From Sporosarcina sp. P33 (GTDB lineage Bacteria; Bacillota; Bacilli; Bacillales_A; Planococcaceae): a stretch of 64,000 nt of DNA. The translations under genes were made by a program, and so were the position numbers. Below are positions 54,641 to 64,000 of this stretch, piece by piece (position 1 is the stretch's first letter; each line of letters begins with the position of its first letter). The stretch spans positions 1,094,501 through 1,158,500 of the forward strand of contig NZ_CP015027.1 of the NCBI RefSeq assembly GCF_002077155.1, in the 5' to 3' direction. Below the pieces are notes generated by a model that saw only the letters and a program-made list of their open reading frames with translations, was not told the DNA's origin and did not search any database.

Positions 54641-55234
54641 ATGACATATACTGTGATGAAAAGTACAACGAAGGGAATGAGTGTAATCGATCAATCTGCT
54701 TCTAATTTTATGATGATGTGCTGGTATCAGCCGGTGTATTTCTGGCCCTGTTTCCCTGTCATGCCGCCTATGCAGCAGATTCATCACGCTGGAGGCCCTT
54801 CTGAACCGCTGCAATGTGCCCGGACTGATTTTGGACCGATGCCTTTTTCGACGAATATAACTCAAGCTGCGAAGCGCAATAACACGTTCCGTACTGCCTT
54901 GTGGACAGGAGATCATATGCAGCTTACTCTTATGAGCATTGCCCCTGGTGAAGATATTGGGTTGGAAGTCCATCCCCATGTCGATCAATTCCTTCGATTA
55001 GAAGAAGGCAGCGGCTTGGTTCAGATGGGACCGACAGTCAATCAGGTGAATTTTGAGCGAAGAGTCGCTGACGATGATATTATTTTGATTCCGGCGGGAA
55101 CGTGGCACAATCTCACAAATACAGGCAGTGTACCGATAAAGTTATACTCTATTTACGCCCCGCCGAATCATCCGCGCGGCACTGTTCATGAAACGAAGGC
55201 TATTGCAGATTCATCAGAAGAACAGCATGAATAA
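54641..55234 (+). CDS. Cupin-domain protein with a Met/Trp/Cys-rich N-terminus
   Basis: Up to 197 residues. An odd N-terminal stretch (MMMCWYQPVYFWPCFPVMPP) rich in Met, aromatic residues and Cys precedes a single cupin: EVHPHVDQFLRLEEGSG (His-x-His, with Gln where the motif usually has Glu) and PAGTWHNLTNTG. The metal site seems complete apart from that position. The start is uncertain; no good ribosome site is seen, and M at 54656 or 54677 are alternatives. Divergent from block 2 of the peptide array, so it may share its control region. Confidence 0.72.
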   Translation: MTYTVMKSTTKGMSVIDQSASNFMMMCWYQPVYFWPCFPVMPPMQQIHHAGGPSEPLQCARTDFGPMPFSTNITQAAKRNNTFRTALWTGDHMQLTLMSIAPGEDIGLEVHPHVDQFLRLEEGSGLVQMGPTVNQVNFERRVADDDIILIPAGTWHNLTNTGSVPIKLYSIYAPPNHPRGTVHETKAIADSSEEQHE

Positions 55235-55377: not shown

Positions 55378-56427
55378 TTATACATTGACTAAAGAAAAAT
55401 ACTTCTCTACATCTTCATTCGTGACTTCTGTAATTGATGATGGATTCCATTTCGGAGACTGATCTTTATCGACCAATACCGCACGGACTCCTTCATAAAA
55501 GTCTGCGTTATCCATAAAATGCATAGCCATATTTCTTTCCATTTCCAAACATTCCAACAGCGTCTGGTTTTGGCCTTTGATTAATTGATGAAGGGTAACT
55601 TTTAAAGATGTAGGCGATTTTGAAAGAATGTTTCGCACTGTTAGTTCAGCCCATTCATCTCCTTCAGCTGCCGCACTTTTCAAAGAATCCACAATTTCCT
55701 CTACTGTTTCATATTGAAAATGGCGTTTTATCTCTTCCTGCTCATTTTTCAAGTCGGAATTAATTGGTGTTTCAGCCGTATACGATTGAATGAATGCTTC
55801 TAAATCCGCCACGATTGAGTCAACAGACCATTGCTTCGTTCGCATTTCCTTTTGTATAGTTTCCCAATTGGCACTGTTCATATAATAATCTGCCGCATTC
55901 ATATAAATCGCATCACTCGCGGATATCACTTTTGAAGTCAGTGCCAAGTAACGACCCGTATATCCAGGCAGTTGATTTAGAAAATAGCTGGCTCCCACAT
56001 CCGGAAAGAAGCCGATATTCATTTCGGGCATTGCCCATTTTGTCTTCTCTGTTACAATTCGGTGTGTTGCTCCTATTGAAAGACCAACGCCGCCGCCCAT
56101 CACGATACCATTCATATATACCATAATTGGTTTTGGGTACTGATGGATCATAGCATCCAACCGATACTCTTTTGAGAAGAATTCATTTGCATAGGCAGCG
56201 ACATCCTCATTTTTCAAATCATAGAATTTTCGCATATCCCCGCCTGCACAAAATCCTTTTTCTCCTTCACCTGATAAACAAATGAAGACTATGCGATCAT
56301 CATTTCTCCATTTTTTCAGTGCTTCCGTTAGTAATTCGACCACTTCGACATTGATGGAATTTAACACTTTAGGGCGGTTTATTTTTATCCAGCCTATCCC
56401 ATTATCCACCTCAGTTAACACGACCAC
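55378..56427 (-). CDS. 3-hydroxyisobutyryl-CoA hydrolase family (HIBYL/3-HP-CoA hydrolase)
   Basis: 349 residues, the long crotonase subgroup. NRPKVLNSINVEVV, GFCAGGDMRKFYD, GIVMGGGVGLSIGATHRI and the PEMNIGFFPDVGASYFL motif define the HIBYL-CoA-hydrolase branch. It hydrolyses 3-hydroxyisobutyryl-CoA or 3-hydroxypropionyl-CoA to the free acid. The GTG at 56427 follows AGGTGG by 8 bases; the ORF begins four codons earlier. Last gene of the minus-strand operon, 36 bases after the dehydrogenase gene. Confidence 0.87.
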   Translation of the reverse strand: MVVLTEVDNGIGWIKINRPKVLNSINVEVVELLTEALKKWRNDDRIVFICLSGEGEKGFCAGGDMRKFYDLKNEDVAAYANEFFSKEYRLDAMIHQYPKPIMVYMNGIVMGGGVGLSIGATHRIVTEKTKWAMPEMNIGFFPDVGASYFLNQLPGYTGRYLALTSKVISASDAIYMNAADYYMNSANWETIQKEMRTKQWSVDSIVADLEAFIQSYTAETPINSDLKNEQEEIKRHFQYETVEEIVDSLKSAAAEGDEWAELTVRNILSKSPTSLKVTLHQLIKGQNQTLLECLEMERNMAMHFMDNADFYEGVRAVLVDKDQSPKWNPSSITEVTNEDVEKYFSLVNV

Positions 56428-56463
56428 ATGTCTCACCACCTAAACCGTTTTGATGTAATTATT

Positions 56464-57921
56464 TTAATATCTGGCTGTCAGCATTTTTCTTCTCGTATAA
56501 AAATTGACTCCGTCTTTTCCATTTGCATGAAGATCTCCGTAGAAGGAATCTTTATGTCCGGAGAACGGGAAGAAAGCCATTGGTGCCGGTACCCCCAGAT
56601 TGACACCTAACATTCCCGCATCCATCTCTTCACGGAATTGTCTGACTGCTTTAGCGCTGTCTGTGTAGAGACATGCTCCATTCGCAAAATCTGATTCATT
56701 GGAAAGCGCGATCGCTTCGTCTAAACTTTCTACCCGGACGATGGATAATACAGGTGCAAAGATTTCTTCTTTCCATATTTTCATTTCTGATGTCACGTTG
56801 TCGAAAATAGTAGGCCCTACATAGTATCCAGATTCCTTCACTTGATCATTACGGCCATCACGGAGAAGACGTGCTCCTTCTTCCTCACCTGCAGCAATGA
56901 AACTTTCAGTTCGCTCTTTATGAGAATCACGAATGACTGGTCCTAAAAACACATTTTCATCCAGTCCATTTCCAATAATTATTTCATCTGAAGCTTTTAC
57001 AAGTCTGTCTACTAATTCGTCTGCAACGTTACCCACCGCTACCACTACGGAACATGCCATGCAACGCTCTCCGGCAGAGCCAAATGCAGCACCGATAATA
57101 TTTGTTACTGCGTTATCCAAGTCTGCATCCGGCATAACGATAGAGTGGTTCTTTGCTCCGGCAAGAGCCTGCACACGTTTTTTATTAGCAGCAGCAGTCT
57201 TATAAACGTACTCCGCAACAGGTTGAGAGCCAACAAATGAAATAGCTTTCACATCTTTACTTTCCATTAATCCATTCACCACATCATGTGCACCATGTAC
57301 AATATTCAATACCCCATCGGGCAGACCTGCTTCTTTGAAAAGCTCAGCCAAACGATTGGCAAGAAGCGGTGTTCTCTCGGATGGTTTAAGAACAAATGTG
57401 TTCCCAACTGCAATTGCAAGGGGGAACATCCAACATGGAACCATCATCGGGAAGTTGAATGGTGTGATTCCGCCTACTACTCCTAATGGATAACGATACA
57501 TACCAGACTCTACCCCAGTTGCAATATCAGGTAACTGATCGCCCATCATCAGCGTAGGAGCACCTGCCGCAAATTCTACACATTCGATTCCGCGCTGCAC
57601 TTCACCATAAGCTTCTGTGTAACTTTTACCGTTTTCAATGGTAATAATTTTCGCCAGTTCTGACCAATTTTCAACAAGCAACTGCTGGTAACGAAACAGG
57701 ATACGTGCCCGTCTTGGAACCGCCACTTTACTCCATGATTTGAATGCCTCTTTTGCAACTGCTACCGCTTGCTCTACATCTTTTTTAGATGAAATTGGTA
57801 CAGTAGCAATTATTTCACCTGTTGCCGGATTAGGCACCTCTTCATATTGTTCAGTCTCTGCTGACACCCATTCACCATTAAGAAAATTCTTTACTTCTTC
57901 TATATTTGTCTTAACTGTCAT
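56464..57921 (-). CDS. mmsA: Malonate/methylmalonate-semialdehyde dehydrogenase (CoA-acylating)
   Basis: 485 residues. [14 protein letters not shown], the [15 protein letters not shown] segment (which replaces the general-base Glu motif of other aldehyde dehydrogenases) and catalytic Cys287 in GSAGERCMA are diagnostic for CoA-acylating MmsA/IolA enzymes. It converts methylmalonate semialdehyde to propionyl-CoA or malonate semialdehyde to acetyl-CoA, the latter being the DddC reaction. The ATG at 57921 follows AAGGAGG; the longer ORF is not used. In an operon with the alcohol dehydrogenase. Confidence 0.9.
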
Positions 57922-57934
57922 GTAAACCGCCTCC

Positions 57935-59143
57935 TTAGTTTGTTTGTTCGGCAAATTGTGTTTTCTCGCTAAAGTCATAATTATAACATCTTTGATACAG
58001 TTCAATAATCTCATCTGCAGCAGGTACTCTCGGTGTGTTTGCCGGACTGCCGCTTTTAATTGCATCTTCTGCCATTTTTGATAAAGAACTTGTAAATAGT
58101 TTTTCATCTATTCCATATGTCTTCATATTAGGAATGTGTAAGTCAACACAGAGCTGCTTCAATTCATTTATGACCCCGCAAGCTAACTCTCGATCTGAGT
58201 AATCGTCCGCATTTTTAACAATTCGTCTTCCAATCTCAGCAAGCCTGTCTATTGAGGCCTCCATAGTAAATTCAAGCACTGCCGGAAGCAGCATGGCATT
58301 GGAAATTCCATGAGGTGTATGGAATAGCGCCCCTATAGGTCTTGACATCCCATGAACGAGTGTTACTGAAGCATTAGAGAATGCCGCTCCCGCAAGCATG
58401 GAACCTAGCGCCATGCTTGATCGTGCATCCATATTCTCTCCCTCTTCATAAGCCGTTCGAATACTTCCAATCATATGATCAATGGCGGTTAATGCTAATA
58501 CATCGGTAACCGGATGCGCTTTTCTTGATATATACGCTTCAATTGCATGACATAGTGCATCTACACCAGTCGCTGCTGTGACGCCCTTCGGACAAGAGAC
58601 GGTCAGATTCGGATCTACAATAGCAACTGCCGGTAATAAACTCGCATCAGAAAGCATCATTTTGATGTCTGTTGCAACATCTGTGATGACTGTTACCTTT
58701 GTTACCTCAGATCCTGTTCCTGCAGTTGTAGGTACCGCGATAACAGGCAGCGGTTTCTTCGCTAGTTCTTTTCCCGTCCCAAAGTAGTCTGTCATTGTAC
58801 CGCCATTCGTCATCAGCACTGAAACCGCTTTCGCAGTGTCAATACAGCTGCCCCCGCCAATTGCGACAATGTGATCGCAGGTTTCACGGGAACAAATATC
58901 CATTGCTTCTTTAACGTGGATATCTGTCGGTTCTGAATCTACATCCAAATACGCTGTGTACGATAACCCGCTTTCTTTAAGCAAGTTCTTACACTCTTCC
59001 ACATATCCTAGCTTTGCCATTATCGGATCACTGATAATTAACGTCTTTCCGCCCAATTTGATTGATTGTTTTCCTACTTCCTTAAAAGAGTCCATCCCAT
59101 AAAGAATCGTGCTTGGCATGAGTAATTCATGAAAAGTGTTCAT
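57935..59143 (-). CDS. Iron-containing alcohol dehydrogenase (DddB-like 3-hydroxypropionate dehydrogenase?)
   Basis: 402 residues. NAD-binding [30 protein letters not shown], and metal ligands in [13 protein letters not shown] and [18 protein letters not shown]. Type III alcohol dehydrogenases of this kind (DddB) oxidise 3-hydroxypropionate to malonate semialdehyde. The next gene oxidises the product, and the downstream HIBYL-type hydrolase can supply the substrate; valine-pathway 3-hydroxyisobutyrate is the alternative. The ATG at 59143 follows AAAGGGGTG. Confidence 0.85.
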
Positions 59144-59195
59144 CAGTTTACACCCCTTTGCATCCGTATATTTGCGTAGCAGCTGATATATTTCA

Positions 59196-59996
59196 TCATG
59201 ATTTGAAAACAGGTTTACGTTTTTCAATAAACGCGTTAACACCTTCGACCATATCATCCGTCTTGAATAATTGAGACCATTGTTCTGTTTCAATTTTCAA
59301 TCCTTCTGAAAGTGTTGTTTTAGTACCTTCATTAACAGCAGTTATTGCGGCTTGAATTGAATGTGAGCTTTTATTTTGAACAATAGCTTCAGCTAGTTTC
59401 TTCGCTTCATCTGCTAACTCTTCAAGTGGAACAGATTTATTTACCAAACCGATTCTTTCAGCTTCTTCCCCGGATACAAATTGACCGGTCAGAATTATTT
59501 CAAGCGCTTTTGCTTTATTGGTAAGTCGGGGTAAGCGCTGTGTGCCGCCAAAACCTGGTATTAGCCCCAAGTTCAATTCAGGCTGACCCAACTTCGCTTC
59601 ATTAGCTGCAATGCGAAGATGACAACTCATGGCAAGCTCTAGACCTCCACCCAGACATGCGCCATTAATAGCCGCTATGACAGGTTTTGTTAAATTCTCA
59701 ATTTGATTTAATACGGTTTGTGCATCGACAGATAATTTCCTGCCTTTTTCCTCATCATGGAACGCTTCGGTGAATTCCTTAATATCTGCACCCGCTACAA
59801 ACATCTTCCCTGCGCCCGTTAATACAGCAGCTTTAATACTTTGATCAGATTCTATAAAATTCATACACTCCGACAAACCATTAACGGTCGTTGTGCTTAA
59901 TGTATTTGCAGGAGGACAATTAACAAAAACATATCCTACTCCATTTTCCACTTTCAAATCTATATTTGTGAACTCTTTGACTTTTGTACTTTCCAT
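59196..59996 (-). CDS. Enoyl-CoA hydratase (acryloyl-/methacrylyl-CoA hydratase candidate)
   Basis: 266 residues. Both catalytic glutamates of the crotonase fold are in place: GACLGGGLELAMSC and LGQPELNLGLIPGFGGTQRL; oxyanion residues lie in FVAGADIKEF. It hydrates 2-enoyl-CoA, here probably acryloyl-CoA to 3-hydroxypropionyl-CoA. The ATG at 59996 follows TGGAGTGA. First gene of a four-gene operon whose promoter carries a candidate TetR operator. Confidence 0.88.
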   Translation of the reverse strand: MESTKVKEFTNIDLKVENGVGYVFVNCPPANTLSTTTVNGLSECMNFIESDQSIKAAVLTGAGKMFVAGADIKEFTEAFHDEEKGRKLSVDAQTVLNQIENLTKPVIAAINGACLGGGLELAMSCHLRIAANEAKLGQPELNLGLIPGFGGTQRLPRLTNKAKALEIILTGQFVSGEEAERIGLVNKSVPLEELADEAKKLAEAIVQNKSSHSIQAAITAVNEGTKTTLSEGLKIETEQWSQLFKTDDMVEGVNAFIEKRKPVFKS

Positions 59997-60139
59997 TAAC
60001 AATCACTCCATTTCAATAATAGTAATTCGTTTGTAAGTTTTATACACTTTATCTTTAAAAACTTGTGTAAACGTCCCCACCTCTTTCTTCCAGATGCTCT
60101 TACCGAATTGTTAAAATTAACAATTTTCTTTACATTCTC

Positions 60140-60187
60140 AGTTTAATATAATTTTCTGTCACAGTCAATAAAAATTTGACCGGACAG
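60140..60187 (-). promoter_or_regulatory. Promoter of the hydratase operon with a TetR-type operator
   Basis: On the minus strand TTGACT (60163-60168) and TAAACT (60140-60145) are 17 bases apart. Just upstream lies TGACCGGACA (60177-60186, plus strand). TTCTGTC (60154-60160) and GACAGAA (60183-60189) form a wider inverted repeat. Confidence 0.55.
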
Positions 60188-60356
60188 AATAAAAGTTTTT
60201 TTATATTTGAAAACTACAGTAATCACACGGCTAAAGCAATAAGCATATGTTCAGTCTTGTTATAGATTGCTAATTAGTGATATGATTTTACTGAGAAAGC
60301 CGTTTTTTCATTTAAAGGTACATATATAAAGGAATTTTTCTTATACTAAAAGACAC

Positions 60357-60366
60357 TGTCCGGTTA
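60357..60366 (+). promoter_or_regulatory. TetR-type operator upstream of the regulator gene
   Basis: TGTCCGGTTA, the inverse of TAACCGGACA, lies 57 bases before the regulator start and points to autoregulation. A promoter TTGTTA-N18-TATGAT is visible near 60258-60287. The 426-base gap 59997-60422 holds these divergent control elements only. Confidence 0.45.
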
Positions 60367-60422
60367 TATACTCGTACATCTTATTCTGAAATCAGGAAAT
60401 ATAAAATTGGAAGGTGAAGTAA

Positions 60423-61034
60423 ATGAATCCAAGAGCAGAAGAGCGAAGAAAACAAGTTTTACGCGCAACACTGAAAGCCATTGGCGAGAAAGGTTTTAAC
60501 GCTGTTACCCTTCAAGATATCGCAGACTATGCAGACGTCAGCAAAGGTGTTATCAGTTATTATTTTAAAAATAAAGAGGATGTTTTTTATCATTTGCTTG
60601 AGTGGATGACCGATAGGATATTCAAAAATGAATATGCCGCCATCCAAAAGGAAGAGCTTGCAATAGATAAAATGAGAGCATATGTAAATGCAGCTTTCAA
60701 AAGTCCAGAAGATAACCGTATATTTTACAGCGTCTATTTAGAATTCCTCGCCCAAGTAAACCAAAACGAACGTTTTCGTGAAGTAAATAATACGTTCTAT
60801 AAAAATTGCTGGTTTATCGGAAGTGAAATCATTCAAAAAGGTAAATCAGAGGGAATCTTCGAAACTATTGAAATCGAGAGCGGAAGCCATATGATTCGTG
60901 CTCTAATCGACGGATGCCTTCTCCAGTGGCTGATGAGGGATGATCCTTCACTGCATTCTCACTATCGGGACAATTGTTTTGAAACCATTATTACATATTT
61001 AAACTGCAAAAAACCCGAAGATTCTATCAATTAA
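60423..61034 (+). CDS. TetR/AcrR family regulator
   Basis: 203 residues. The N-terminal helix-turn-helix VTLQDIADYADVSKGVISYYFKNKEDVFYHLL is typical of TetR; the C-terminal all-helical ligand domain (BetI-like) is unassigned. Placed between two divergent operons with four similar TGACCGGTCA-like sites nearby, it is the likely local repressor, responding to a pathway intermediate such as acrylate or an acyl-CoA. SD GGAAGGTGA. Confidence 0.87.
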   Translation: MNPRAEERRKQVLRATLKAIGEKGFNAVTLQDIADYADVSKGVISYYFKNKEDVFYHLLEWMTDRIFKNEYAAIQKEELAIDKMRAYVNAAFKSPEDNRIFYSVYLEFLAQVNQNERFREVNNTFYKNCWFIGSEIIQKGKSEGIFETIEIESGSHMIRALIDGCLLQWLMRDDPSLHSHYRDNCFETIITYLNCKKPEDSIN

Positions 61035-61045
61035 CCAAAAAAAGA

Positions 61046-61073
61046 TTGACCGGTCACATATCTGTTGTATAAT
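61046..61073 (+). promoter_or_regulatory. Promoter of the AcuI-like gene with an operator on the -35
   Basis: TTGACC (61046-61051) and TATAAT (61068-61073) are 16 bases apart. The palindrome TGACCGGTCA (61047-61056) covers the -35, so bound repressor would block polymerase. Confidence 0.7.
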
Positions 61074-61112
61074 AGACGATACAGTCTAACTTATAGTTGG
61101 AATAAATATACC

Positions 61113-61179
61113 CCTCATTAGGACTGGTGGTTTCAGGTCTAATGAGGAACTATTTACCCAAAATTAGTATGACCGGTCA
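61113..61179 (+). promoter_or_regulatory. Leader hairpin and second operator of the AcuI-like gene
   Basis: CCTCATTAG (61113-61121) pairs with CTAATGAGG (61139-61147) in the untranslated leader; no T run follows. A second perfect TGACCGGTCA lies at 61170-61179, 123 bases from the first, allowing DNA looping or a road-block. Confidence 0.5.
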
Positions 61180-61222
61180 AAATGTCCTTTTAAAAATACT
61201 ATGTACACTGGAGGAGTTTTAT

Positions 61223-62215
61223 ATGAACGATTTACATTTTAGAGCTTTATTAGTGAATAAAGATGAAAATGATTTTTCTTCAACTATCACTACTTTGAAA
61301 GTAGATGACTTACCCGCCGGCGATGTCATTATTAAAGTTGCATATTCCAGCGTCAATTACAAGGATGGCTTAGCTGCAACTCCTAATGGCAAGATTGTCA
61401 GCGCATACCCGCATGTTCCTGGTATTGATATGGCAGGAACCATTGTTTCCTCTACAGATTCCCGCTTTCAAGAAGGCGATGAAGTAATCGCAACAAGCTA
61501 TGAAATTGGCGTTTCACATTTTGGAGGATTCAGTGAGTATGCCAGGGTTTCTGCTGATTGGATTGTTCCATTGCCGGAGGGCTTATCCATGCAGGAAGCT
61601 ATGGCTTTCGGAACAGCTGGTTTTACCGCTGCACTCTCTATACAGCGATTAGAAGAAAATGGTGTAACACCTGATAAGGGGTCCGTTCTCGTCTCTGGTG
61701 CCACTGGCGGCGTCGGAAGTTTCGCAGTATCTATGCTTGCGAAGCTAGGATATCATGTCGTTGCAAGTACAGGAAAAGAAACCGAGAAAGAATTCCTTTA
61801 TAGTATTGGTGCGAGTGAAGTGATTTCACGTCAAGACCTGCAGCCGGAAAAAGTTAGACCTCTCGATAAACAGCTCTGGGCTGCAGCGATTGATCCAGTT
61901 GGCGGCAATACACTTTCTTATATAGTCAGCACACTGCAATACGGCGGTTCGGTTGCTGTCAGTGGATTGACAGGAGGAACTAATGTCCCGACGACAGTCT
62001 TTCCGTTCATATTAAGAGCGGTGAATATACTCGGCATTGATTCTGTTTATTGTCCAATGACAACACGCAGTGCATTGTGGAATCGAATGGCAAGTGATAT
62101 GAAACCTGACAATTTAGATGCTCTTACTACTGAAGTCTCCTTAGATGAGCTGCCTGCTACTTTATCAAAAATTTTAGAAGGTCAGGCAAAAGGAAGAACC
62201 GTTCTTAAATTATAA
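61223..62215 (+). CDS. YhdH/YhfP-family quinone oxidoreductase, AcuI-like acrylyl-CoA reductase
   Basis: 330-residue zinc-free medium-chain reductase. YSSVNYKDGLAATPNGKIV, PHVPGIDMAGTIV, FGTAGFTAALSIQRL and the NADPH motif VSGATGGVGSFAVSMLAKLGY are the YhdH/AcuI signature. AcuI reduces acryloyl-CoA to propionyl-CoA, removing a toxic intermediate in DMSP and acrylate metabolism. The ATG at 61223 follows GGAGGAG. The assignment within the family is supported by the neighbours. Confidence 0.83.
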   Translation: MNDLHFRALLVNKDENDFSSTITTLKVDDLPAGDVIIKVAYSSVNYKDGLAATPNGKIVSAYPHVPGIDMAGTIVSSTDSRFQEGDEVIATSYEIGVSHFGGFSEYARVSADWIVPLPEGLSMQEAMAFGTAGFTAALSIQRLEENGVTPDKGSVLVSGATGGVGSFAVSMLAKLGYHVVASTGKETEKEFLYSIGASEVISRQDLQPEKVRPLDKQLWAAAIDPVGGNTLSYIVSTLQYGGSVAVSGLTGGTNVPTTVFPFILRAVNILGIDSVYCPMTTRSALWNRMASDMKPDNLDALTTEVSLDELPATLSKILEGQAKGRTVLKL

Positions 62216-62266
62216 TGAATTACTATTGATTAATCTGGGAATAAATGAACAGCTACTTATACGATT

Positions 62267-62316
62267 GCCCCATGAATGGAGCAGGCAAGCGTTTCGCCTC
62301 CAATCATGGGGCTTTA
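62267..62316 (+). terminator. Terminator of the AcuI-like gene
   Basis: GCCCCATGA (62267-62275) with TCATGGGGC (62304-62312), an inner GGAG/CTCC stem, and a short T-rich tail. Confidence 0.72.
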
Positions 62317-62350
62317 TAATGTTTATATAATCAGCCGAAGTCAGCCGTCA

Positions 62351-62384
62351 AAAAGGCCCGCTATGATCTCATAGCGGGCCTTTT
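62351..62384 (-). terminator. Terminator of the hydratase/BCCT operon
   Basis: A perfect 15-bp stem AAAAGGCCCGCTATG (62351-62365) with its inverse at 62370-62384. Confidence 0.87.
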
Positions 62385-62392
62385 GTGGTGTC

Positions 62393-63211
62393 TTACACTT
62401 TCTGTGTTCCCTTTAAAAATGCGCCTACACCCTTCTCACGAACGATCCGGCCTGCTTCCGCAATTTCCTGTTCCTGGCTTAAGAAGAACATAGAAATTGC
62501 CGTTTCAATATTATAATCAAGCGACTGTTTCAAATTCATCATTTCATATGTCTTATTAATTGTCATCTTTGTAATTTTCAGCGCAGATGGCGGTATATTC
62601 ACCATTTTCTCTGCCAGCTTTATGGCTTCCGCCAATAGCTCTTCTTGAGGTACAACCCGATTGAAAATGCCTAAGCGGTAGCCCTCTTCCGCATCAACGG
62701 AGTCACCGGTAAAAAGGAGTTCTTTCGCTTTTCGCAAGCCCACAATCCACGGCATCATCAAAGTAGCCGGCGCTGCCCCAAAACGGATCTCAGGTTCGCC
62801 AATCATAGCTGTATCGGACGCAATGGCCATGTCTGCAGAGAATACCCAATCAGCTGCTACTCCGTAAGCGTGTCCATCTACTGCGGCAATCACAGGTTTC
62901 TTCAAGTCCCAAAGTTTCAGTCCAACCCGCAAGAAAGTTTCCAGTTGAGCACGGTAAACTTCTGACGGTTCGTCGCCAATAGGAGACGGCAGATCCATTG
63001 ACTCTTTAAGATCTGCACCTGCGGAGAAGTTCCCCCCTGCACCCGCCAAGATTACCACTTTTACGTTTGAATCTTTTTCTGATTGATCCAGTGCATCCCA
63101 GATATCTTCCGTCATTTGCTCCGTCACCGCATTTAATTTATTAGGACGATTTAAAGTAATCGTCGCAATGTGATCTTCAATTTTGTATAGGATTGTATTA
63201 TAATCTTTCAT
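62393..63211 (-). CDS. Enoyl-CoA hydratase/isomerase family protein, atypical active site
   Basis: 272 residues. NRPNKLNAVTEQM and NFSAGADLKE (oxyanion) are conserved, but the GGG.EL helix that carries the first catalytic Glu reads YGVAADWVFSAD, while the second Glu is kept in IGEPEIRFGAAP. Simple hydration may therefore be altered; lyase, isomerase or thioester roles are possible. It follows the BCCT transporter with a 14-base overlap. ATG at 63211 after GAGGAAG. Confidence 0.8.
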   Translation of the reverse strand: MKDYNTILYKIEDHIATITLNRPNKLNAVTEQMTEDIWDALDQSEKDSNVKVVILAGAGGNFSAGADLKESMDLPSPIGDEPSEVYRAQLETFLRVGLKLWDLKKPVIAAVDGHAYGVAADWVFSADMAIASDTAMIGEPEIRFGAAPATLMMPWIVGLRKAKELLFTGDSVDAEEGYRLGIFNRVVPQEELLAEAIKLAEKMVNIPPSALKITKMTINKTYEMMNLKQSLDYNIETAISMFFLSQEQEIAEAGRIVREKGVGAFLKGTQKV

Positions 63212-64000
63212 ATTTTTCTTCCTCTCTATTTTCAAATTTCACAATACCACTATTTAAATGCTGGTCAGCTATGATTCCAAGATTTCCTTTTTGTAAATTG
63301 ATGCCCGCTGGCTCCAAATTTTCTTTCACCATATTCTGATCAGCAATTTCAGCTTCTTCCAGCTCCACATCTTGTTCGAGGTGTGCTTCTGTTTTCAGCA
63401 TTCTCAGTAACGAAATGACGAGAAGTGCAATCACTAAAATAAATGGAAGCGCTGTCAAAATTGAAGCGGTTTGTATTGTTTGAAGATCTCCTCCAAGAAC
63501 CATCAAGGTTGCCGGTAAAATAAACAAAGTAATAGCCCAGAACAATCTATTCCATTTAGCTGGTTCTTCATTCATTTTAAGTTCTGGTGTGGTTGCTGAT
63601 GCCATCATATAGGCGGCAGAATCGAATGTTGTAGCTAAAAATATTAAAGCAATGAAGCTAAACACTAGTACAGCAAACCAGCCAAAAGGAAGCGTATTGA
63701 TGACTTCAATAATTGCCGCGGGTGCACCAATTTGCTCTACCAAACTGGTTATCGATAAAACTTTTGTAAGCTCTAAGTTCATGGCATAATTTCCTAGAAT
63801 CGTAAAGTACGCTGTGCATCCCAGCGATCCCCAAGATATTCCGCCCAAGATTACTTGTTGAATGGTTCTCCCTTTGGAAATCTTCGCAATGAAAAGTCCC
63901 ATGAATGGAGTGTAAACAATCCACCAAGCCCAATAAAAAACGGTCCACCCCTCAACAAAACCTGAATTACTGACCGGATCTGTATACGTATTCCAGCGTA
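63198..64000 (-). CDS. BCCT-family transporter (betaine/carnitine/DMSP type), C-terminal part
   Basis: The window holds the last 266 residues; the start lies beyond 64000. WTVFYWAWWIVYTPFMG with ISKGRTIQQ is the BCCT signature around helix 8, followed by helices 9-12 and an acidic tail (HLEQDVELEEAEIADQ) that may sense osmolarity. It imports quaternary or tertiary ammonium/sulfonium compounds. Next to acrylate-handling genes, DMSP (DddT-like) is a good candidate; glycine betaine or carnitine cannot be excluded. Confidence 0.88.
   Translation of the reverse strand, partial: RWNTYTDPVSNSGFVEGWTVFYWAWWIVYTPFMGLFIAKISKGRTIQQVILGGISWGSLGCTAYFTILGNYAMNLELTKVLSITSLVEQIGAPAAIIEVINTLPFGWFAVLVFSFIALIFLATTFDSAAYMMASATTPELKMNEEPAKWNRLFWAITLFILPATLMVLGGDLQTIQTASILTALPFILVIALLVISLLRMLKTEAHLEQDVELEEAEIADQNMVKENLEPAGINLQKGNLGIIADQHLNSGIVKFENREEEKYERL

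Follow-up and report, generated by a model that had tools for sequence, protein, structure and literature searches.

The right-hand end of the window (the whole stretch of DNA analysed, 64,000 nucleotides in length, equivalent to G000:C1:1094501-1158500 of the Sporosarcina sp. P33 genome, a single contig of 3,235,441 bases) contains a cluster of genes coding for a BCCT transporter, two enoyl-CoA hydratases (ECH; ech1 and ech2), a HIBYL-type hydrolase (HIBCH), an iron-containing alcohol dehydrogenase (Fe-ADH), a semialdehyde dehydrogenase, an AcuI-like reductase and a TetR regulator. All eight were listed in a first-pass annotation of this DNA, and the open reading frame (ORF) list and profile searches place each of them at or near the coordinates given there and in the same family; the starts of the Fe-ADH, ech1, acuI and ech2 genes are revised here relative to the longest ORFs. 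Together with dddX, which lies just beyond the window, the genes are arranged in the order dddX-dddT-ech2 / acuI-tetR / ech1-FeADH-mmsA-HIBCH and form three transcription units. On the basis of gene content, gene order, residue conservation, co-occurrence among genomes and shared palindromes, we read the cluster as a regulon for the catabolism of dimethylsulfoniopropionate (DMSP), with a probability of about 0.85; Sporosarcina sp. P33 would then be predicted to grow on DMSP.

The first-pass annotation had proposed catabolism of acryloyl-CoA and 3-hydroxypropionate (3-HP), possibly from DMSP, and expected the cleaving enzyme (for example DddD, or DddX, which is ATP-dependent) to lie past position 64000 and upstream of the BCCT gene. 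Reading onward, a dddX gene is found exactly there (L007:11480-13591, or 64979-67090 in window numbering, minus strand), its end 59 bases upstream of the BCCT ORF, and the strength of this match, together with the DddT-like transporter and the residues that both proteins retain, supports the proposal. The product is a 703-amino-acid NDP-forming acyl-CoA synthetase whose best solved-structure match is the DMSP lyase 7CM9 of Psychrobacter sp. D2 (1152.6 bits, 74% identity), the next solved relative being a 4-hydroxybutyrate-CoA ligase at 279.3 bits. It keeps six of six tested residues – H257, W356, E397, F400, Y146 and D173, corresponding with an offset of 35 to H292, W391, E432, F435, Y181 and D208 in the numbering of PMC8163506 – which that paper assigns to histidine phosphorylation, a cation-pi contact and the catalytic base. 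In a tree of ACD proteins (30 rows, two of an initial 32 being dropped because the ATG-only rule gave no ORF longer than 600 amino acids) P33 DddX clusters with the DddX rows, apart from the 24 other rows; the six DddX rows carry the combination Y-D-H-W-E-F, and all 24 others share only the histidine. The purified P33 enzyme makes acryloyl-CoA from DMSP in vitro (eLife 2021, PMC8163506). P33 DddX is an ATP-dependent DMSP lyase, and it is not new: the lyase itself is already published, and a Gram-positive DMSP lyase was in print before the present analysis. A tblastn search of a plasmid collection revealed no plasmid-borne dddX, all 142 records showing less than 60% identity and the best 20 of the 142 lying at 29-30%.

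The adjacent BCCT gene (63198..64919, minus strand, and thus extending past the end of the window at 64000) is a 573-amino-acid ORF, and sequence comparison shows its product to be DddT-like: it scores 962 bits against DddT of Psychrobacter sp. D2 and 285 bits against the next solved BCCT protein, with 417 of 525 residues (79%) identical to DddT. All 22 distinct DddT residues tested, taken from PMC13270143 and covering the DMSP path and the Na1 and Na2 sites, are kept. The protein presumably imports DMSP in vivo, and uptake of carnitine or betaine was set low as its role on the strength of the same two scores. BCCT or ABC transporters have been described near DddX in several genomes (PMC8163506), and lyase-linked DddT proteins mainly in gamma- and alphaproteobacteria (PMC13270143); the main text of the latter paper never mentions Firmicutes, Bacillota or Sporosarcina.

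DddX is rare among the relatives of P33, being present in four of 261 genomes of the family: P33, Sporosarcina sp. P13 (G193, with two copies), Sporosarcina sp. BP05 (G201) and a member of another genus (G132); the remaining matches listed in the family genomes have at most 32% identity. A scan of genome contigs with a DddX alignment identified three loci, all in Sporosarcina (two in P13 and one in BP05), and in a class-wide sample DddX was seen in one of 398 genomes, P33 only, although this is a rough count with few candidates scored per genome. A TetR ortholog of at least 86% identity occurs in exactly the same four of the 261 genomes, and it is in part because DddX and this close TetR ortholog coincide that we favour a DMSP regulon. 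The cluster can be read through in P33, BP05 and G132, where the gene order is the same, and in P13 a dddX-dddT-ech2 half and a HIBCH-mmsA-FeADH-ech1-tetR-acuI half each stop at a contig edge, in fitting orientations. With this arrangement repeated across genomes, the cluster is more than a chance grouping.

The TetR gene (60423..61034, plus strand; PF00440 and PF13977) encodes a proposed cluster repressor, and a palindrome, TTGACYRGTCAA, is its predicted operator. Exact copies are found at four places in the P33 genome, two of them before dddX and the other two inside coding regions, those of a MocA-like gene and a permease gene; by our own reading these hosts are MocA-like and BtuC/FecCD-type permease genes. 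Before acuI there are two predicted operators, TTGACCGGTCAC over the -35 box (61046..61057; palindrome and promoter scan) and ATGACCGGTCAA (61169..61180; palindrome scan). At both dddX and acuI, and in all four DddX genomes, the palindrome lies across the -35 hexamer of a pair of promoter-like boxes, which in P33 reads TTGACC-N16-TATAAT at acuI (11 of 12 promoter positions matched) and TTGACT-N17-TACAAT at dddX (10 of 12). Sixteen promoter regions from eight genomes contain 7 exact palindromes, or 17 when up to one mismatch is allowed; the corresponding means over 1000 dinucleotide shuffles of these regions were 0.003 and 0.061, with maxima of 1 and 2, respectively. Since TTGACYRGTCAA is shared by dddX and acuI in all four genomes, we predict a single regulon, in which binding of TetR would control acuI together with the dddX operon, the ech1 operon perhaps being included as well. 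Because the site covers -35 boxes, TetR most likely represses, with repression being lifted by a compound of the pathway. A further site, at 59481 within ech1, is also seen in relatives, and we read it as a coding motif (L-T-G-Q). Searching the whole genome with one mismatch allowed yields 45 forward matches as compared to 21 for a reversed control, and lone one-mismatch sites elsewhere therefore mean little.

What becomes of acryloyl-CoA once DddX has formed it was not confirmed in PMC8163506, with dotted lines in the Figure 1 legend and a call for further experiments; the P33 cluster assembles a candidate for every step after DddX in one place, in a Gram-positive organism whose DddX is active in vitro. 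In the proposed pathway DddT would import DMSP with sodium, and DddX, using ATP and CoA, would convert it to DMSP-CoA, from which dimethyl sulfide is eliminated to leave acryloyl-CoA. Enoyl-CoA hydratase 1 (59196..59996, minus strand; PF00378), the proposed acryloyl-CoA hydratase, would add water to form 3-hydroxypropionyl-CoA (3-HP-CoA), perhaps along with the second hydratase/isomerase (ech2; 62393..63211, minus strand; PF00378). The best solved relative of the ech1 product is a 3-hydroxypropionyl-CoA dehydratase, 5ZAI (221 bits), and it has both of what we take to be the catalytic glutamates of crotonases, in GGGLE and GQPE; ech2 has an aspartate at the first of these two positions in all four DddX genomes.

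From 3-HP-CoA, the HIBCH-type acyl-CoA hydrolase (HIBYL-CoA hydrolase; 55378..56439, minus strand; NF004127, 431.6 bits with a cut-off of 274) is a candidate for release of 3-HP. Its counterparts in the other three DddX genomes share 70-74% identity with it, and it is the sole match in the P33 genome to span the whole PF16113 profile (1-335 of 335). We suggest this role because an ECH and HIBCH pair, VutD and VutE, takes acrylyl-CoA to 3-HP and, by way of 3-HP-CoA and 3-HP, guards against acrylate (PMC4029986); a literature search for '3-hydroxypropionyl-CoA hydrolase' with DMSP gave no paper pairing the two among the 12 matches listed of 2,813. The Fe-ADH (57935..59143, minus strand), a proposed DddB-like 3-HP dehydrogenase that is present in all four DddX genomes, would oxidise 3-HP to malonate semialdehyde, and the CoA-acylating (methyl)malonate-semialdehyde dehydrogenase, a DddC/MmsA-like enzyme (56464..57921, minus strand; TIGR01722, 622.7 bits with a cut-off of 448.5), would convert this to acetyl-CoA and CO2; its gene is 90-94% identical in the other three genomes. 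Overflow acryloyl-CoA would be reduced to propionyl-CoA by the AcuI/YhdH-family acryloyl-CoA reductase (61223..62215, plus strand), which passes the acrylyl-CoA reductase family model TIGR02823 (479.8 bits, cut-off 297.25), and the propionyl-CoA could join the methylmalonyl-CoA route. A methylmalonyl-CoA mutase is present in four of four DddX genomes, which points to an outlet for propionyl-CoA. We note that in G132 a mutase subunit gene and a gene read as MeaB-like are situated upstream of the DMSP cluster (L046:3805-7076), suggesting a propionyl-CoA route beside it.

Several observations weigh against the DMSP regulon, or at least against parts of it. The steps after acryloyl-CoA – hydration, hydrolysis, oxidation and detoxification by AcuI – are presumed by homology. 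Hydratase 1 falls below the cut-off of its best model (304 against 313), and AcuI below that of the strict AcuI model NF051456 (390.2 bits against 440). The Fe-ADH, a putative DddB, matches only general Fe-ADH models (PF00465 and PF25137) and passes no curated subfamily cut-off; a plasmid search with it recovered nonspecific Fe-ADHs (best 58.9%). As to control, the TetR protein does not reach the AcuR cut-off (NF051457, 32.4 bits against 247), and the AcuR of Halomonas sp. D47 is reported as an activator, not a repressor (PMC13104084), so that repression in P33 is a prediction made from the position of the site. The 16 promoter regions were picked after the motif had been seen, and the excess of promoter-like pairs in them compared with shuffled sequence is mild (11 versus 7.0, and 8 versus 4.0). 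The predicted operator upstream of ech1 (60176..60187; palindrome scan) is weak and imperfect, with two mismatches, lies just upstream of the -35 box and is missing in P13, and palindromes with up to two mismatches number 9 in the whole window versus 8.69 expected, which is not above chance.

The alternative that survives best, though we consider it unlikely, is that the main flow is reductive, with acryloyl-CoA passing mostly via AcuI to propionyl-CoA and the methylmalonyl-CoA route, and the oxidative operon being minor. The promoter match is best at acuI, the palindromes are clear at acuI and dddX and weak at ech1, and the mutase occurs in all four DddX genomes and adjoins the cluster in G132, all of which accord with reductive flow; the four-gene oxidative operon, however, is intact in all four genomes, with mmsA conserved as described above.

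We regard it as distinctly improbable that ech1-FeADH-mmsA-HIBCH is a valine operon, converting methacrylyl-CoA to 3-hydroxyisobutyrate, with dddX-dddT an unrelated neighbour. ECH, HIBCH and MmsA are all valine-pathway families, the acrylate-detoxifying VutD and VutE are themselves valine enzymes (PMC4029986), and with a sole full-length HIBCH in the genome, valine breakdown by this route would need the cluster gene. Against this, the first-pass remark that no MmsB-type dehydrogenase is present holds for the cluster and extends further, in that a profile search of the whole P33 genome gave no TIGR01692 match over the cut-off (best 195.4 bits, cut-off 291.6), and the cluster has an Fe-ADH where an MmsB would be expected. 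The genome contains two more MmsA-type genes at another locus (G000:C1:2474494-2479323; 75% and 41% identical to the cluster MmsA), each of the four DddX genomes has the complete set along with dddX, and a palindrome is common to acuI and dddX; the absence of MmsB over the cut-off and these shared palindromes led us to set valine degradation low as the main role. The cluster enzymes may nonetheless also serve valine breakdown. A one-mismatch palindrome is found about 200 bases before the closer (75%) of the two MmsA-type genes, possibly by chance.

Similarly improbable is a principal role for DddX and the BCCT protein with another betaine-like or sulfonium acid, such as a carnitine relative, DMSP being a side substrate, a view to which the listing of P33 from Tokyo, Japan (PMC5930826), not known to be a DMSP-rich source, and the setting of a second P13 DddX, whose neighbours are a different BCCT and two CoA-transferase family III genes, lend something, but which sits poorly with the activity of P33 DddX on DMSP in vitro (PMC8163506), the 22 of 22 DddT residues kept and the acryloyl-CoA-handling genes all around.

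The second P13 dddX (L044:10027-12144, within L044:7823-16983) is 66% identical to that of P33 with six of six tested residues kept, and its neighbours include a sigma-54 activator as well as the two CoA-transferase genes and a BCCT gene whose product is 36% identical to the DddT-like one; perhaps this locus serves another substrate. Near it, one gene away, is a gene for a FabK-like flavoenzyme (L044:6373-7335), and a FabK-like gene stands directly in front of dddX in BP05 (L045:9253-10236) and G132 (L046:8861-9826). All three are preceded by an exact TTGACYRGTCAA. At 90% identity or more the enzyme is confined to these three of the 261 family genomes, all DddX-bearing, the next best match being at 47%; what P33 carries is no more than a distant paralog (best E 7.6e-63). 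The enzyme scores below the cut-off of the FabK model TIGR03151 (273.5 bits, cut-off 453.1) and may be ArkA-like. ArkA, a FabK-type enzyme, was found by acrylate resistance, its pathway not being known to its authors (PMC4029986). We tentatively entertain, as a view somewhat less likely to be right than wrong, a self-guarding regulon in some Planococcaceae-type Bacilli, in which TetR acting through TTGACYRGTCAA would open the lyase together with a detoxifying reductase, and to which three of the four DddX genomes would add a second acryloyl-CoA reductase, unrelated to the first, in the form of the FabK/ArkA-like flavoenzyme. If this is true, then ArkA-type enzymes would gain a natural pathway, and HIBCH would close the gap between 3-HP-CoA and 3-HP in the DddX route.

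Among the closest known systems, the dddBCXT operon of Psychrobacter sp. D2 (PMC8163506, PMC13270143) resembles the P33 cluster in combining the DddX and DddT compared above with an MmsA-type enzyme and with an alcohol dehydrogenase; P33 adds HIBCH, AcuI, a hydratase and TetR, divides its genes among three transcription units, and is a Gram-positive host. The P33 DddX of PMC8163506 is the same enzyme as that described here, and the available text of that paper covers the enzyme only, not the cluster or its control. In the literature searched, no other paper mentions Sporosarcina together with DMSP. A tetR gene beside acuI and control linked to acrylate or DMSP, as predicted here, are also features of acuR-acuI-dddL in Rhodobacter sphaeroides (PMC3017554) and of the dddD cluster with AcuR and AcuZ in Halomonas sp. 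D47 (PMC13104084), but the lyases differ, as do the operators, with TTGACYRGTCAA in P33 and TAATAGAC-n6-GTCTATTA in the AcuR systems; the P33 TetR protein is outside the AcuR family by NCBIfam. The ECH and HIBCH pair is matched by VutD and VutE, but VutD, VutE and ArkA are known from resistance screens or valine oxidation, whereas the present genes are inside a DMSP cluster (PMC4029986). Within the literature compared – few DddX papers, each in part – the cluster frame and its predicted shared control are described here as new. The predicted operator makes this control testable, and the gene set marks Bacilli for the ability to cleave DMSP.

Weaker TetR orthologs are found in 14 further genomes of the 261, one at 63% identity and 13 at 46-49%. 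In the four inspected (G144, G238, G032 and G258) acuI is divergent from tetR, and no other pathway genes are present in approximately 20 kb around the pair. These divergent pairs belong to other genera of the family, lack DddX and have the same palindrome between the two genes (L078:11473-13352 in G144; also L081, L082 and L084), and the DMSP cluster may have taken up tetR-acuI from what is a general defence against acrylate. On the direction of transfer between Psychrobacter and the Bacilli, a FastTree reconstruction nests the DddX of Psychrobacter sp. D2 among the Bacilli rows (0.84-0.88), but a more careful tree leaves these forks open, and approximately unbiased (AU) tests do not reject a Bacilli-only clade for DddX (p = 0.216 and 0.0986) or DddT (p = 0.263). 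The GC content of the cluster is 40.9% and that of the rest of the window 43.5%, a difference too small to provide an argument from base composition.

Upstream of dddX are genes for a histidine kinase and for HTH and GAF-domain proteins (L007:14388-16322, or 67887-69821 in window numbering), which were not found near dddX in BP05 or G132 and which P13 has at 58-80% identity. At the other end of the cluster, a cupin-domain gene (54641-55234) follows the HIBCH gene, and a counterpart with 58% identity is positioned beside HIBCH in P13.

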